Assembly: GCF_040564635.1 (NCBI RefSeq)
Contig: NZ_CP159837.1
Coordinates: 1,491,001-1,555,000, forward strand
Direction: 5' to 3'
Origin: Planktothricoides raciborskii GIHE-MW2
GTDB taxonomy: Bacteria > Cyanobacteriota > Cyanobacteriia > Cyanobacteriales > Laspinemataceae
DNA: 64,000 bases
Numbering within the stretch: the stretch's first letter is position 1; every line of letters begins with the position of its first letter. Position numbers and translations under genes: made by a program. Positions 59,340-64,000 of the stretch are shown in pieces. Under the pieces are notes generated by a model. It saw nothing but the letters and a program-made list of their open reading frames with translations. It did no database searches and had not been told where the DNA came from.

Positions 59340-61919
59340 ATGATCATGCTTTCTTTTGACACAGATACTAAAGAAATTGCCAGATTACTGGGAATAAATC
59401 CCGATCCGATCGCTCCAAATGATGGGGATATTTTAAAGCCTTTTGGTGCCAATCAACTACCAATACCGGGGGCTGCCGATGCGATCGCTCTCCCCACCTT
59501 AGTATCAGTGGCCTGCGATAATCTTGTCATCCCTCTCGATATGTCGGTTGACCAAGGAAAAACTCCAGCGGAAACGGATTCTCACACTGCTGCGTCCGTA
59601 GATTCGTTAACAGGAATAGCCTTAGCCAAGAGTCACGAACAATTACAGCAATTTGCCAATAGCCCAGAGTTTCTCTCTCAAATGAGCCTTGCTTTTGGAG
59701 ATGATTTTGATGTTGAGGCGGCTCAGGATTTGGCAGATAGCTTGACTAATGGTACTTTCCAGACATCACCGATTAAGGTCGTTTCTGCTGCTGATATCAA
59801 CGGAGCTAATGGGGCTTTTGCCGCAGAAACTAACAATATTTATCTGTCTAGTGAGCTTGTGGCTGACAATGCTGATAACCCATTGCCAATTGTCTCAGTG
59901 CTGCTAGAAGAGATAGGGCATTATATCGACTCACAGATTAACATCTCCGATGCAGCGGGAGATGAGGGGGCGATTTTTGCTGGTGTCGTTCAAGGGAAAG
60001 TGTTTGATGCAGCGGAACTACAGGGATTAAAGGCGGAAGATGATACTGCGACGGTGATGCTGGATGGGAAAGCCACGGTCATAGAGCAGGCAGCTAATCA
60101 AAAAGCAGACTTTAATGGAGATGGCAAAACTGACTTCATCCGCCAAGAGAAAAACTTTTGGGATGATGACACATTCAATACTGCCCACGTTTGTTTGTCA
60201 ACGTCAAATGGCAGTTTTAGCAAGCAGGAATTGACCGATCATGCGGGGATGAAGGGCGACCTGACTAACCTGATTTTTGGCGACTTCAACGGCGATCGTC
60301 GTACCGACTTCATCCGCCAAGAAAAAGGGGTTTGGGATGATGACACTGCCAATACTGCTCAAGTTTATTTGTCCAATGGTAATGGCACCTTCAGTAAGCA
60401 AGACTTGACGAATCAGGCGGATATGAAGGGGGACATGACTAACCTGATTGTCGGCGATTATAACGGCGACGGCAAAGATGACTTCATCCGCCAAGAAAAA
60501 GGAGCTTGGGATGATGACACTGCCAATACTGCTCAAGTTTATTTATCCAATGGTAATGGCACTTTCAGTAAGCAAGACTTGACCGAGCATACGGCGATGA
60601 AAGGCGATTTAACCAATCTGATTGTCGGCGATTATAACGGCGACGGCAAAGATGACTTCATCCGCCAAGAAACAGGAGTTTGGGATGATGACAATGCCAA
60701 TACTGCTCAGGTTTATTTGTCCAATGGTAATGGCACCTTCAGTAAGCAAGACTTGACCGATCATGTGGGGATGAAAGGCGACCTGACTAACCTGATTCTC
60801 GGCGACTTCAACGGCGATCGTCGTACCGACTTCATCCGCCAAGAAAAAGGGGTTTGGGATGATGACACTGCTAATACTGCTCAAGTTTATTTATCCAATG
60901 GTAATGGCACCTTCAGCAAGCAAGACTTGACGAATCAGGCAGATATGAAGGGAGACCTGACCAATCTGATTGTCTGCGATTATAACGGCGACGGCAAAAA
61001 TGACTTTATCCGCCAAGAAAAAGGGGTTTGGGATGATGACACTGCCAATACTGCTCAAGTTTATTTATCCAATGGTAATGGCACTTTCAGTAAGCAAGAC
61101 TTGACCGATCATGTGGGGATGAAAGGCGATCTGAGCAATTTGATTGTTGGCGAATTTAACGGCGATCGTCGTACCGACTTCATCCGCCAAGAAAAAGGGG
61201 TTTGGGATGATGACACTGCCAATAATGCTAACATTTATTTGGCCAATAGTAATGGCACATTTTGGAAGCAAGACTTGACCAATGACCCTAATTCTATGAA
61301 GGCTGATGATGGTGTCAATATTCTTACCGGATCGCCACAGGCGTATTTAAACCCCACTCCTAGTTCTAGTCCAACTCCTACTGGTGGTAAATACCAACTC
61401 CCTTACCCAGATGGTACAACTTATAAAGTTTACCAAGGAAATAACGGCGGATACAGCCACTCGGATCAATGGAACCGCTATGCTTGGGATTTTGGTATGC
61501 CTGAAGGCAATACAGTAGTCGCGACAAGAAGTGGTAAAGTCGTCAGTTTATACGAAGGTTCTCAAACGAGATTAACTTCTATGAACGGTTGGGCACAATA
61601 CACTAACTATGTACTTATTGATCATGGAGATGGAACATCTTCTTTTTATTCTCACTTAAAAAATAATAGTGTACTGCCAAATGTAGGCGATTATGTAAGT
61701 CAAAACCAGCCAATTGCTCAAAGCGGAAATACTGGTTTCTCCACTGATCCTCATCTACACTATTCTGTACAAAAAACTCCCAGTTATATTCCTCCTGGTG
61801 GTTTTAGCAACACAAGCGGATATGCGACTGAAAGCCTACCAAGTTCTTTCTCAGATCCAAATGTCTTGAGCCAAAATTCTAATGGTGTGCCTACTTCTCC
61901 TAACTACTATACTTCGTAG
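59340..61919 (+). CDS. FG-GAP/VCBS repeat protein with C-terminal M23 peptidase
   Basis: An 859-aa probably secreted protein. The N-terminal 240 residues include a module common in cyanobacterial exoproteins (NIYLSSELVADNA, LLEEIGHYIDSQIN, DEGAIFAGVVQGK), where LLEEIGH resembles a zincin helix lacking its first His. Residues about 250-650 are seven FG-GAP-like repeats of 58 aa (GDFNGDRRTDFIRQEKGVWD, YLSNGNGTFSKQDL) that should form a calcium-binding beta-propeller. Residues about 690-825 are an M23/LytM endopeptidase: HSDQWNRYAWDFG, DHGDGTSSFYSHL and the zinc motif HLH (805-807). It probably cuts peptidoglycan crosslinks or glycine-rich peptides outside the cell. No signal peptide is obvious. 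Confidence 0.9.
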   Translation: MIMLSFDTDTKEIARLLGINPDPIAPNDGDILKPFGANQLPIPGAADAIALPTLVSVACDNLVIPLDMSVDQGKTPAETDSHTAASVDSLTGIALAKSHEQLQQFANSPEFLSQMSLAFGDDFDVEAAQDLADSLTNGTFQTSPIKVVSAADINGANGAFAAETNNIYLSSELVADNADNPLPIVSVLLEEIGHYIDSQINISDAAGDEGAIFAGVVQGKVFDAAELQGLKAEDDTATVMLDGKATVIEQAANQKADFNGDGKTDFIRQEKNFWDDDTFNTAHVCLSTSNGSFSKQELTDHAGMKGDLTNLIFGDFNGDRRTDFIRQEKGVWDDDTANTAQVYLSNGNGTFSKQDLTNQADMKGDMTNLIVGDYNGDGKDDFIRQEKGAWDDDTANTAQVYLSNGNGTFSKQDLTEHTAMKGDLTNLIVGDYNGDGKDDFIRQETGVWDDDNANTAQVYLSNGNGTFSKQDLTDHVGMKGDLTNLILGDFNGDRRTDFIRQEKGVWDDDTANTAQVYLSNGNGTFSKQDLTNQADMKGDLTNLIVCDYNGDGKNDFIRQEKGVWDDDTANTAQVYLSNGNGTFSKQDLTDHVGMKGDLSNLIVGEFNGDRRTDFIRQEKGVWDDDTANNANIYLANSNGTFWKQDLTNDPNSMKADDGVNILTGSPQAYLNPTPSSSPTPTGGKYQLPYPDGTTYKVYQGNNGGYSHSDQWNRYAWDFGMPEGNTVVATRSGKVVSLYEGSQTRLTSMNGWAQYTNYVLIDHGDGTSSFYSHLKNNSVLPNVGDYVSQNQPIAQSGNTGFSTDPHLHYSVQKTPSYIPPGGFSNTSGYATESLPSSFSDPNVLSQNSNGVPTSPNYYTS
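60106..61290 (+). repeat. Seven 174-bp coding repeats inside the FG-GAP gene
   Basis: Successive 174-bp units encode one propeller blade each. Several stretches of 50 or more bases are identical or nearly so between units, implying recent amplification or gene conversion. Confidence 0.9.
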
Positions 61920-62179
61920 TTTGTTAGTATCGACAACTAATATTAACGTGAGTTCAACGACTAATATAGCAATCCCAAAGTAATAGGGTGCTTCACCGGG
62001 CAATTTTTTACTAAAACAATTAATTATCGCAGGTGACACACCCTAAATCTGTTGAAAATACAATTGCGATAATCCCTCTGCTACCTAGTTTCTGTGCTAA
62101 GAAGCGATCGCTATTTTATTTTAAGATAGGCGATCGCTATTTTATTCTTAGATAGGCGATCGCTTTTTTGCCCCGAAAA
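61920..62179. other. Intergenic region with HIP1 sites
   Basis: After the FG-GAP gene comes a TTTACTAAAACAATTAATTATCG AT-rich stretch without a gene, then three copies of GGCGATCGCTATTTTATT-type units (62104-62168), the start of the HIP1-rich region. Confidence 0.7.
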
Positions 62180-62429
62180 AGAAACCGGGTTTCTATTGTG
62201 AATATAACAGTTAAATGTGGTAGGCAAAAAAGAAACCCGGTTTCTGAGTCCCTGGTTTTTGCCCCAAAAAAGAAACCGGGTTTCTGTTGTGAATATCACA
62301 GTTAACTTTTGCCGCCAAAAAAGAAACCCGGTTTCTGAGTTCCTGGTTTTTGACACCGAAGAAAGAAACCGGGTTTCTGTTGTGAATATAACAGTTAACT
62401 GTGGCAGTAAAAAAAGAAACCCGGTTTCT
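62180..62429. repeat. Three 66-bp inverted-repeat units (AGAAACCGGGTTTCT ends)
   Basis: Units at 62180-62245, 62271-62336 and 62364-62429, each exactly 66 bp. Each starts AGAAACCGGGTTTCT, ends with the complement AGAAACCCGGTTTCT, and has a core GTGAATATAACAGTTAACTG (ACAGTTAACTGT is itself palindromic). They are separated by 25-27 bp spacers with GAGTCCCTGGTTTTTG. Three related units lie downstream of the nuclease gene pair. Confidence 0.95.
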
Positions 62430-62442
62430 GAGTCCCATGAGA

Positions 62443-62595
62443 GGGCGATCGCTTTTTTTGTGGGGAGCGATCGCTTTTTTGTAGGGTGCGATCGCTTTTT
62501 TGGGTGGGCGATCGCTTTTTTGGGGGGCGCTTTTTTGGGGGGTGCGATCGCTTTTTTGTGGGGTGCGATCGCTTTTTTGTGGGGTGCGATCGTAT
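62443..62595. repeat. HIP1 array upstream of the GIY-YIG gene
   Basis: Six intact GCGATCGC octamers and two degenerate ones in 150 bases, each followed by TTTTTT and joined by GTGGGGTGC-type linkers with a period of about 22 bp. The last unit is 36 bases from the nuclease start codon. Confidence 0.95.
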
Positions 62596-62630
62596 TGTAT
62601 TATCGGAAAACTGCCTAATGTCACATCACT

Positions 62631-62999
62631 ATGTCTGAATCCATTGAGCGAGAAGCCGAAGTCATACTGCACACTCTTGCATCGACTTCGTTCCAGGATT
62701 GTATCGCCCTGTCCAAGGAATTCCGCGAACTGCCAATGACGGCTGGTATCTACGCTGTTAAACATCGCACCCTGGGAATCCTTTACATTGGTAAAACCAG
62801 AACACTGAGAGATCGTTTTCGTGGGGGTCACAAAGCGTTACTTTGGGCATTCATCGAAGAATTAAAAGCCACAGACATCCGAATTGCTTTTTACCCGCTA
62901 GATTTTGTTCAATGGAGACAGCTATCATTGGAGTTAGAACGTCTAATTATTCAAGCCGTGAATCCACCTTATAACGTGAAAATTCCAGCGAGGGACTAA
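62631..62999 (+). CDS. GIY-YIG nuclease-domain protein
   Basis: A 122-aa protein with a GIY-YIG endonuclease domain: AGIYAVKHRTLGILYIGKTR contains both GIY and YIG, followed by the catalytic arginine region LRDRFRGGHKALL and a later EL/E (LSLELERLIIQAVNPPYN) with the conserved Asn. The N-terminal 40 residues are helical. GIY-YIG nucleases act in homing, restriction, repair (UvrC) and transposition. The compact form resembles cyanobacterial stand-alone nucleases of unknown role. It is followed after 5 bases by a 69-aa gene, so the two are co-expressed, and both are flanked by palindromic repeat arrays. Confidence 0.87.
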   Translation: MSESIEREAEVILHTLASTSFQDCIALSKEFRELPMTAGIYAVKHRTLGILYIGKTRTLRDRFRGGHKALLWAFIEELKATDIRIAFYPLDFVQWRQLSLELERLIIQAVNPPYNVKIPARD

Positions 63000-63004
63000 T
63001 AAAG

Positions 63005-63214
63005 ATGCAAACTCAGCCTGCGATTTCTGAACATCTGTCACCTGAATTAGCACAAATATTTTTAGAAGGATTACCTGAAACCATTCGTCACGGACTAGAA
63101 ATGCGAGCGAAAAGAATGAACTATCCAGTTTGGGCAGTTATTGAAATGGCGATCGCTGGCTATCTTGATGAAGAAGCACTATCTTTTGTCGATTGCCAGC
63201 CAAAGCTTGACTAG
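63005..63214 (+). CDS. Small helical partner of the GIY-YIG gene, 69 aa
   Basis: Starts 5 bases after the nuclease stop. The sequence (LSPELAQIFLEGLPETIRHG, RAKRMNYPVWAVIEMAIAGY, DEEALSFVD) predicts three helices without a clear DNA-binding signature; the middle part faintly resembles a ribbon-helix-helix second helix. I do not recognise the family. It may be an inhibitor, an adaptor or a DNA-binding subunit for the nuclease; the tight spacing supports a joint function. Confidence 0.7.
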   Translation: MQTQPAISEHLSPELAQIFLEGLPETIRHGLEMRAKRMNYPVWAVIEMAIAGYLDEEALSFVDCQPKLD

Positions 63215-63230
63215 CCATAAATCATATTCA

Positions 63231-63290
63231 TGCGATCGCTTTTGGGGGGCGATCGCTTTTGGGGGGCGCTTTTTTTGGGTGCGATCGCTG
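63231..63290. repeat. HIP1 array downstream of the 69-aa gene
   Basis: Three intact GCGATCGC sites with GGGGGG linkers and T-tracts, starting 17 bases after the stop codon. Confidence 0.92.
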
Positions 63291-63306
63291 TTTTAACCCC
63301 AAAAAA

Positions 63307-63451
63307 AGAAACCGGGTTTCTTCTGTGAATATCACAGTTAACTGTGAAAGCGATAAAGAAACCCGGTTTCTGAGTCCCCAAGAAAAGAAACCGGGACCCA
63401 AGTGGTGAATATTAGAGTTAACTGTGGAACCACAAAAGAAACCCGGTTTCT
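63307..63451. repeat. Two more inverted-repeat units of the 66-bp family
   Basis: Units at 63307-63371 (65 bp) and 63386-63451 (66 bp; left end degenerate, AGAAACCGGGACCCA). Cores keep GTGAATAT and AGTTAACTGTG. Confidence 0.92.
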
Positions 63452-63464
63452 ATGTCCCCTGAGA

Positions 63465-63580
63465 GGGCGATCGCTTTTTTGTGGGGTGCGATCGCTTTTT
63501 TGTGGGGTGCGATCGCTTTTGGGGGGCGATCGCTTTTGAGAGGGCGATCGCTTTTTTGGGGTGCGATCGCTTTTTTTAGG
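63465..63580. repeat. Second HIP1 array
   Basis: Six intact GCGATCGC octamers in 116 bases, each followed by four to seven T, with GTGGGGTGC linkers identical to the upstream array. Confidence 0.95.
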
Positions 63581-63586
63581 GATATG

Positions 63587-63651
63587 AGAAACCGGGTTTC
63601 TCTATATAATCTCTGTCACCCAACCAATATTCTCATAGAAACCCGGTTTCT
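63587..63651. repeat. Sixth inverted-repeat unit with a different core
   Basis: Same AGAAACCGGGTTTCT and AGAAACCCGGTTTCT ends and 65-bp length, but the core (CTATATAATCTCTGTCACCC onward) is unrelated to the other five. Confidence 0.88.
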
Positions 63652-63760
63652 TGGTCGGGGCGATCGCCTTGCGGAGGACGAGGAAATCGCTTTTTCGGTC
63701 AACATGGCAAAAAATGACAAAAATTGCCATAATATACCAAAGCGCTAAAAGACTCAGGCT

Positions 63761-64000
63761 ATGAAAACAATGAATGTCTCTGTTCCCGAACCCATGCGGG
63801 ACTACATCGAACAGCAAGTCAAGACCGGAGGTTACGGAAGTGTCAGCGAATATATCCGCGACCTCATTCGTCAAGACCAAAAACGAAAAGCGCAAGAACA
63901 CCTGGAAAACCTTCTATTACAAGGAATAGACTCCGGGGAAGCCACAAATATGAGCGATCGCGACTGGGTAGAAATTCGCCAAGCAGTTCAAAAAAAACTG
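63761..64000 (+). CDS. ParD-like ribbon-helix-helix antitoxin, 3' truncated by window
   Basis: The ATG at 63761 opens an 80-codon frame that runs off the right edge. The N-terminus (TMNVSVPEPMRDYIEQQVKT, GGYGSVSEYIRDLIRQDQKR) is the ribbon-helix-helix domain of type II antitoxins of the ParD/CopG class, and the later part (LENLLLQGIDSGEA, DWVEIRQAVQKK) is the toxin-binding tail. A ParE-type toxin gene is expected just beyond the window. Confidence 0.9.
   Translation, partial: MKTMNVSVPEPMRDYIEQQVKTGGYGSVSEYIRDLIRQDQKRKAQEHLENLLLQGIDSGEATNMSDRDWVEIRQAVQKKL

Follow-up and report, generated by a model that had tools for sequence, protein, structure and literature searches.

REPINs around a GIY-YIG nuclease gene pair in Planktothricoides raciborskii: probable RAYT-spread repeats and a candidate toxin-antitoxin module

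Do a nuclease gene and the palindromic repeats that enclose it form one element, or do two separate systems share one locus? The question is raised by a 64,000-nucleotide stretch of DNA (the window) that corresponds to bases 1491001-1555000 within one 7.2-Mb contig of the cyanobacterium Planktothricoides raciborskii GIHE-MW2. In it, two small genes, giy, encoding a GIY-YIG nuclease, and par, encoding a 69-aa partner, lie between palindromic arrays. An earlier note on this DNA had described two coupled genes with three 65-66 bp inverted-repeat units per side and with arrays of HIP1 (highly iterated palindrome 1) and T-tracts, a description that was confirmed apart from one imperfect right unit, and it had proposed that the palindromes are cognate to the nuclease. 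The answer to which we incline, with rather more confidence than doubt, is that the units are REPINs (doublets of repetitive extragenic palindromes, REPs) probably spread by genes for REP-associated tyrosine transposases (RAYTs), and that giy-par is a separate toxin-antitoxin-like module in a ParDE island.

Open reading frames (ORFs) were called by a simple script, and par follows giy downstream after a gap of 5 bp. The features of the locus, in window positions, are these.

62104-62163, no strand: left HIP1 array, three GCGATCGC
62180-62245, no strand: REPIN unit 1 left, 66 bp, both arms exact
62271-62336, no strand: REPIN unit 2 left, 66 bp, both arms exact
62364-62429, no strand: REPIN unit 3 left, 66 bp, both arms exact
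62445-62592, no strand: left HIP1/T-tract array, seven CGATCG with a period of ~21 bp, the last being the promoter-proximal CGATCG
62587-62592, no strand: CGATCG near the giy promoter, beginning at -44 from the giy start
62631-62999, + strand: giy, GIY-YIG nuclease gene and candidate toxin, 122 aa, Pfam GIY-YIG PF01541
63005-63214, + strand: par, partner gene and candidate antitoxin, 69 aa, predicted to be helical and perhaps ribbon-helix-helix-like
63232-63288, no strand: right HIP1/T-tract array, three GCGATCGC
63307-63371, no strand: REPIN unit 1 right, 65 bp, both arms exact
63387-63451, no strand: REPIN unit 2 right, right arm exact, left arm decayed after AGAAACCGGG
63467-63570, no strand: right HIP1/T-tract array, six GCGATCGC
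63587-63651, no strand: REPIN unit 3 right, 65 bp, both arms exact
63761-64000, + strand: 5' part of a ParD antitoxin gene, PF03693 above the cut-off, its ParE lying beyond the window end

The enclosure of giy-par by inverted-repeat units and HIP1/T-tract arrays is beyond chance. The 15-bp palindrome AGAAACCGGGTTTCT occurs 12 times in the window (both strands), 11 of them at the giy-par locus, and 0 times in 100 shuffles, and GCGATCGC occurs 106 times in the window versus 0.55 expected; between 62104 and 63667, nine copies of the latter lie left of giy-par, ten right and one within par. Among the loci found, the closest named one belongs to Planktothricoides sp. SR001, which has an identical GIY-YIG protein. 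A second giy-par pair in the GIHE-MW2 genome (5945066-5945425), with a nuclease 52% identical, also has the palindrome on both sides, and a PemK/MazF-like gene adjoining it is bracketed likewise.

The genome holds 1442 copies of AGAAACCGGGTTTCT versus two giy genes. Sixty stretches of 20 kb each from this genome contained 232 palindromes, of which 37 were inside ORFs of at least 150 aa, i.e., they are mostly extragenic. The palindrome stood on both sides within 500 bp of 8 of 680 ORFs of at least 100 aa in the 58 stretches without giy-par; the two that hold the pairs (L062 and L092) were omitted from this ORF count and kept in the 232 palindromes. The copies come in inverted pairs: an exact inverted partner was found 45-56 bp on for 126 of the 232, versus 1 of 232 in the control, and when up to three mismatches are allowed, 147 of the 232 have a partner, 116 of them at a spacing of 50 or 51, each doublet being counted from both ends. 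Inverted REP doublets are the REPIN arrangement, according to a portion of PMC3116915. One tandem REP array was also seen (G000:C1:933755-934999), with 16 palindromes in an exact 82-bp period.

REPs point to a transposase, and the genome has six matches to the Y1_Tnp model. Two of these Y1 transposase genes, at 2487602 (L156) and 2510806 (L157), have 15 and 16 palindromes, respectively, on both sides within 3.3 kb (at most one mismatch), where about 0.6 per 3.3 kb is expected from the sampled density. The protein of the 2510806 gene passes the NCBIfam model for REP-associated tyrosine transposases (82.7 bits, cut-off 80), and that of the 2487602 gene is 92% identical to it; at L156 the longest ORF starts upstream and reads through REPs. 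A third Y1_Tnp match (L159) has four palindromes, on one side and more than 1.2 kb away. The same palindrome lies on both sides of the RAYT orthologues in G099, G039, G008 and G213 (L162, L163, L164 and L166). Four genomes of genus g23 (L173-L175, L177) have a variant, their commonest 12-mers including AAACCCGCTTTC. Around the distant RAYTs at L167, L169-L171, L176 and L183, and as a variant at L178 and L179, AGATCCCCGACTTCT-type palindromes are among the commonest 12-mers, and other distant RAYTs have neither type; AGATCCCCGACTTCT-like palindromes are a second cyanobacterial REP type around related RAYT genes. A RAYT gene flanked by REPs is termed a REPtron in an excerpt of PMC6006769. Over 339 cyanobacterial genomes, a RAYT (E up to 1e-30) was found in 8 of the 20 that carry 10 or more copies of the repeat versus 16 of 319 others (p 1e-5).

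Since the palindrome flanks the RAYT genes of this genome and their orthologues on either side, the 65-66-bp units are REPINs, in which two copies of a 15-bp REP palindrome stand in inverted orientation; such repeats are of a known kind. The earlier note was right to see REP/RAYT-type repeats in these inverted doublets, and Y1 transposase genes are flanked by the same palindrome. In taking the nuclease for their enzyme it very probably chose wrongly; the role suits a Y1 tyrosine transposase encoded at another site in this genome, and the palindrome's enzyme is likely a RAYT, not giy.

That giy itself acts on the REP palindromes and spreads them is scarcely credible, even though both pairs of this genome are bracketed. 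Of the 339 genomes, 32 contain the palindrome, 29 a match to giy, whether intact or broken (E up to 1e-12), and 42 par. A high copy number goes with no giy match in G116 (274 copies), G157 (204), G203 (120), G213 (103), G255 (82) and G129 (81), of which G203 and G213 have par, and the palindrome count stays below 10 in 19 of the 29 giy genomes. In the other genomes that reach 10 copies there are 18 giy/par loci, 7 with intact giy and 11 with broken or no giy. None of the 18 has palindromes on both sides within 600 bp, and two have them on one side; at one of the 18, L142, the contig leaves under 500 bp to the left of the gene. An exact copy was absent from the fetched DNA of 40 of the 42 homologous loci in the genome_contigs set, the exceptions being Planktothricoides SR001. 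Furthermore, the palindrome clusters around RAYT genes and brackets ParE genes equally. A cognate relation between giy and the palindrome was therefore rejected: homologues regularly lack flanking 15-bp units, and equal arrays stand at many loci of the same genome without the nuclease. An exact-sequence literature search with GAAACCGGGTTTCT returned no paper.

The counts of whole genomes weigh the other way. Among the 95 genomes of the same order, a giy match (intact or broken) was found in 10 of the 20 with at least 10 palindromes versus 12 of 75 others (p 0.003), par in 14 of 20 versus 21 of 75 (p 0.001), and a RAYT in 8 of 20 versus 15 of 75 (p 0.08); giy thus follows the repeat more closely than this RAYT does. 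At E 1e-30 the RAYT is missing from 12 of the 20 repeat-bearing genomes, including G229, G116 and G157, other RAYT types not having been sought. The window pair was selected for its arrays, which leaves the second pair as the sole independent bracketed case. The co-occurrence of unit and nuclease holds at the genome level within this order and fails at the locus level, where the earlier note had proposed to look for it. Shared ancestry may explain it, because the repeat-bearing genomes share genera; the Fisher tests used hand-tallied counts with no correction for ancestry.

If the REPINs are not tied to giy, what else do they enclose? In this genome REPINs stand on both sides within 850 bp of 6 of 10 ParE genes, versus 1.2% of random positions, and of 5 of 30 PIN genes (the 30 best of 44), 1 of 30 Uma2 genes (the 30 best of 91) and 1 of 30 response regulators (the 30 best of 137), the last being a weak control with many in long genes. 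Bracketing is common to toxin-antitoxin genes generally in this genome. Three of the six bracketed ParE genes sit in an island that starts with the window pair (3631-9569 of L062, G000:C1:1550001-1570000). Besides giy-par, the island contains two ParDE modules, one more ParE-family gene and a Uma2 gene, and the DNA between these genes holds REPINs and, in part, HIP1 arrays; the ParE (PF05016) at L062:5014-5340 follows the ParD that begins in the window. The long alignment with SR001 starts inside the third left unit (62398), so the repeat array is also a place of rearrangement. Against a wider rule stand six other repeat-rich genomes, where 1 of 30 ParE genes was bracketed, with 14 palindromes versus 4.6 expected (a sample of 30 from 72 matches, some on short loci). 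Directly upstream of the arrays, window 59340-61919 encodes an 859-aa protein that combines FG-GAP repeats with an M23 peptidase domain.

What, then, is giy? The protein matches Pfam PF01541 with E 1.1e-7 (32.4 bits, cut-off 22.6), and G39, Y41, Y52, G54, R60, R62, H67, E101, E103 and N115 are invariant across 20 homologues; some of these motif residues are presumably catalytic. The predicted structure has a mean pLDDT (predicted local distance difference test) of 85, and a Foldseek search with it gave UvrC GIY-YIG domains and R.Eco29kI at E 0.002-0.01, with nothing below 0.001, the second match being the N-terminal domain of plant Grx. By its motif and predicted fold, giy belongs to the GIY-YIG superfamily. 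Neither giy nor par had a match among the PADLOC defence models (E up to 1), and a PHROGs search gave weak matches alone (best E 0.0072); phage carriage of the pair was rejected, as scans of viral_contigs confirmed no relative. An apparent giy fusion in G064 was also discarded, the DNA just past giy reading N and the 989-aa open frame being meaningless. At G060:C28:3048-3587, giy and a par-like stretch each come with a 222-aa open frame, a possible fusion, and at L034:5297-6610 giy is interrupted by ~1.3 kb of other DNA with an intact par downstream.

The two genes are inherited together. In all 46 intact pairs par lies directly downstream of giy, and over these pairs the giy and par distances correlate at 0.79, versus at most 0.15 in 999 permutations; within three clades the correlation is 0.60-0.84. 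They do not decay alike. In the survey of the 339 genomes, which examined 51 of 65 par places (the other 14 were mostly partial or diverged, and the giy of G060:C28 was left out too), 44 par were intact, and beside them giy was intact at 19, broken at 18 and absent at 7; here a gene counts as intact if a single open stretch spans most of its profile, and L140 and L030 were so scored despite a stop. The 25 intact par without intact giy are spread over 14 genera. The reverse case, intact giy with no intact par, occurs at 1-2 survey loci, the range being due to L154 (G060), scored as par broken and maybe an intact divergent pair. This asymmetry has p 1e-4 to 7e-4 against gene length. In 9 of the 18 broken survey giy, the stretch from profile position 78 or later alone remains, and at five further survey places par is broken and giy broken or absent. 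In the genome_contigs set, which was found through giy, intact par accompany 27 intact, 18 broken and 1 absent giy, one of the broken (L032) being merely cut by the contig end, and no intact giy stands beside a broken par.

Selection on par does not depend on its neighbor. The median ratio of nonsynonymous to synonymous substitution rates was 0.138 where both giy were intact and 0.140 where both were broken or absent (59 hand-picked par copies), so that par without intact giy is under purifying selection equal to that on par with it. Among 17 par without intact giy, 4 (L117, L131, L135 and L146) are near RelE-, PIN- or MazF-like ORFs, as judged by eye with no model search. Three plasmid records carry a giy relative, and the one on a Leptolyngbya boryana plasmid has its par. 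Taken together, co-inheritance and retained par fit a toxin-antitoxin module with a retained antitoxin. Several points weigh against this: one of the 46 intact pairs crosses clades, at 5 of the 18 survey loci with broken giy most of the gene survives as two pieces, which might reflect assembly errors, the counts are not phylogenetically independent, and a par that stands alone under selection might serve as a regulator in its own right.

The same decay might come about if giy were a homing-type nuclease, a selfish gene that invades the site upstream of par, a useful gene resident in the host, and then degenerates. Broken or absent giy beside conserved par resembles such a cycle of gain, decay and loss, with no giy trace at 7 of the 44 intact survey par. 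However, the giy and par distances are strongly correlated, within clades too, which is not independent inheritance, and giy lacks an intact adjacent par at just 1-2 survey loci, plus one with neighboring N. This account is unlikely.

The nature of par is less clear than that of giy. It matches no Pfam model (E up to 1) and no NCBIfam model, and its predicted structure is a small helical protein. Among 30 members, 6 gave a weak match to FitA-like ribbon-helix-helix (RHH) proteins (best E 0.0076). Other results tell against an RHH antitoxin: 5 of the 30 matched FliG_M with a better E (best 0.002); the best PDB sequence matches are designed proteins and FliG; CopG (E ~2.5) and other RHH proteins are among the first Foldseek matches, all with E of at least 2.4; and the model places a helix at the position of the RHH strand. 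The RHH nature of par is therefore doubtful. At L154 (G060) and at G008:C110:52991-53302, two par-like stretches share one 136-aa open frame, possibly a double-domain partner.

There remain the HIP1 arrays. CGATCG is denser in intergenic DNA beside the pair (8.9/kb) than in other intergenic DNA (3.9/kb) and higher in 25 of 28 loci of other genomes (p 6e-6); the 28 were used of 30 taken from 42, leaving out two Planktothricoides, four without HIP1 and six fragmentary or cut. In the same relatives its density is 5.96/kb beside the pair (9 loci) versus 2.77/kb in ParE flanks (25 loci; p 0.01). The three longest CGATCG arrays in the sampled 1.2 Mb, at window 62445-62592 (seven), window 63467-63570 (six) and L062:5390-5504 (six, beyond the first ParDE), are all in the giy-par/ParDE island. 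A CGATCG lies at -44/-45 in 9 of 10 giy1-type starts and at -53 in the tenth; in 16 giy2-type starts it is at -44 to -46 in 5, at -51 in 3 and not there in 8; and among 16 giy3-type survey starts, which may be misplaced by a few bases, L127 alone carries the site (at -45), the interval from -40 to -55 being free of it in the other 15. The tandem copies L007 and L019 have it at -46 and -47. The promoter CGATCG is followed closely by a TAGGAT or TATAAAAT-like element, which on visual inspection looks like a -10 box, and the window array resembles this CGATCG/-10-like unit repeated at 21 bp.

These figures would suit a restriction-like giy that attacks HIP1/CGATCG lacking a host methyl mark, with par as controller and the arrays as sites or by-products. 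The raised density, the CGATCG at -44 in giy1 and the resemblance of the predicted giy fold to R.Eco29kI speak for it, as do the orphan methylases for GATC and CGATCG that are described in part of PMC4390886. Against it, the Uma2 and ParE flanks of the GIHE-MW2 genome are raised too (4.3 and 4.9/kb), the giy3-type starts mostly lack the site, and GCGATCGC is absent from the fetched 10 kb at four Calothrix/Dulcicalothrix loci (L015, L026, L027 and L037) that carry the pair; because of these loci, HIP1 is not required by the pair. We consider this explanation distinctly unlikely. The earlier suggestion of a nuclease acting on hairpins or HIP1 sites accordingly falls for the hairpin palindromes and keeps some support, from density and the -44 CGATCG, for HIP1.

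If giy-par is a toxin-antitoxin-like module beside RAYT-spread REPINs, as we favor, the two genes would be co-transcribed, and par would bind giy and restrain it, neutralizing its toxicity. The partner might also bind DNA and repress the giy-par promoter, in the giy1 subfamily perhaps through the CGATCG palindromes located around -44. Should par be lost faster than giy, the nuclease would cut or nick a nucleic acid target, and the cell would be harmed or stalled. A bolder version, in which giy founds a new GIY-YIG-toxin family, CGATCG, the HIP1 core, serves as both operator and cut site and so ties cells to the orphan CGATCG methylase found in HIP1-rich cyanobacteria, and the REPINs are the boundaries of cassette shuffling, is very unlikely; it is weakened by the giy3 starts without CGATCG and by the FliG_M matches of par.

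The pair is a candidate for a new type of toxin-antitoxin module. No description of a GIY-YIG type II toxin was recognized in a limited literature search that did not extend to toxin-antitoxin sequence databases. If the candidate proves true, the GIY-YIG fold joins those of the type II toxins. The REPIN-bracketed ParE genes (three of the six in one island) offer a testable clue to the assembly or rearrangement of toxin-antitoxin islands, and the CGATCG in the giy1 promoter region is a concrete handle on possible roles of HIP1 sites. The repeat result also shows that a striking local arrangement misleads unless it is counted across the whole genome.

Compared with type II toxin-antitoxin systems such as ParDE and FitAB-like ones, giy-par likewise consists of two small, adjacent, co-inherited genes, occurs in a toxin-antitoxin island and on a plasmid, and leaves orphan par that outnumber orphan giy. 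It differs in its fold, which is GIY-YIG and not RelE/ParE, PIN or MazF, and, relative to systems with RHH antitoxins, in having the nuclease gene first and the partner second and in the doubtful RHH nature of par. With other GIY-YIG nucleases (the UvrC N-domain, R.Eco29kI and I-TevI), giy shares the conserved motif and the predicted core fold, but it is a stand-alone protein of 122 aa with a co-inherited 69-aa partner. PD-T4-3, which an excerpt of PMC12409345 presents as a single-gene GIY-YIG phage defence of unknown mechanism, also has a GIY-YIG nuclease domain, whereas giy-par has two genes; this comparison is by description and not by sequence.

As in REPIN-RAYT systems, the repeats are 15-bp palindromes of high copy number that lie mostly outside genes and pair up in inverted orientation; the same palindrome flanks Y1 transposase genes, and it varies with the RAYT clade. 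The repeats differ in that visual inspection of the window units revealed no GT[AG]G or similar tetranucleotide at the hairpin foot, no systematic search having been made, in that there are two RAYT genes here, and in that the REPINs bracket toxin-antitoxin genes in their own genome.

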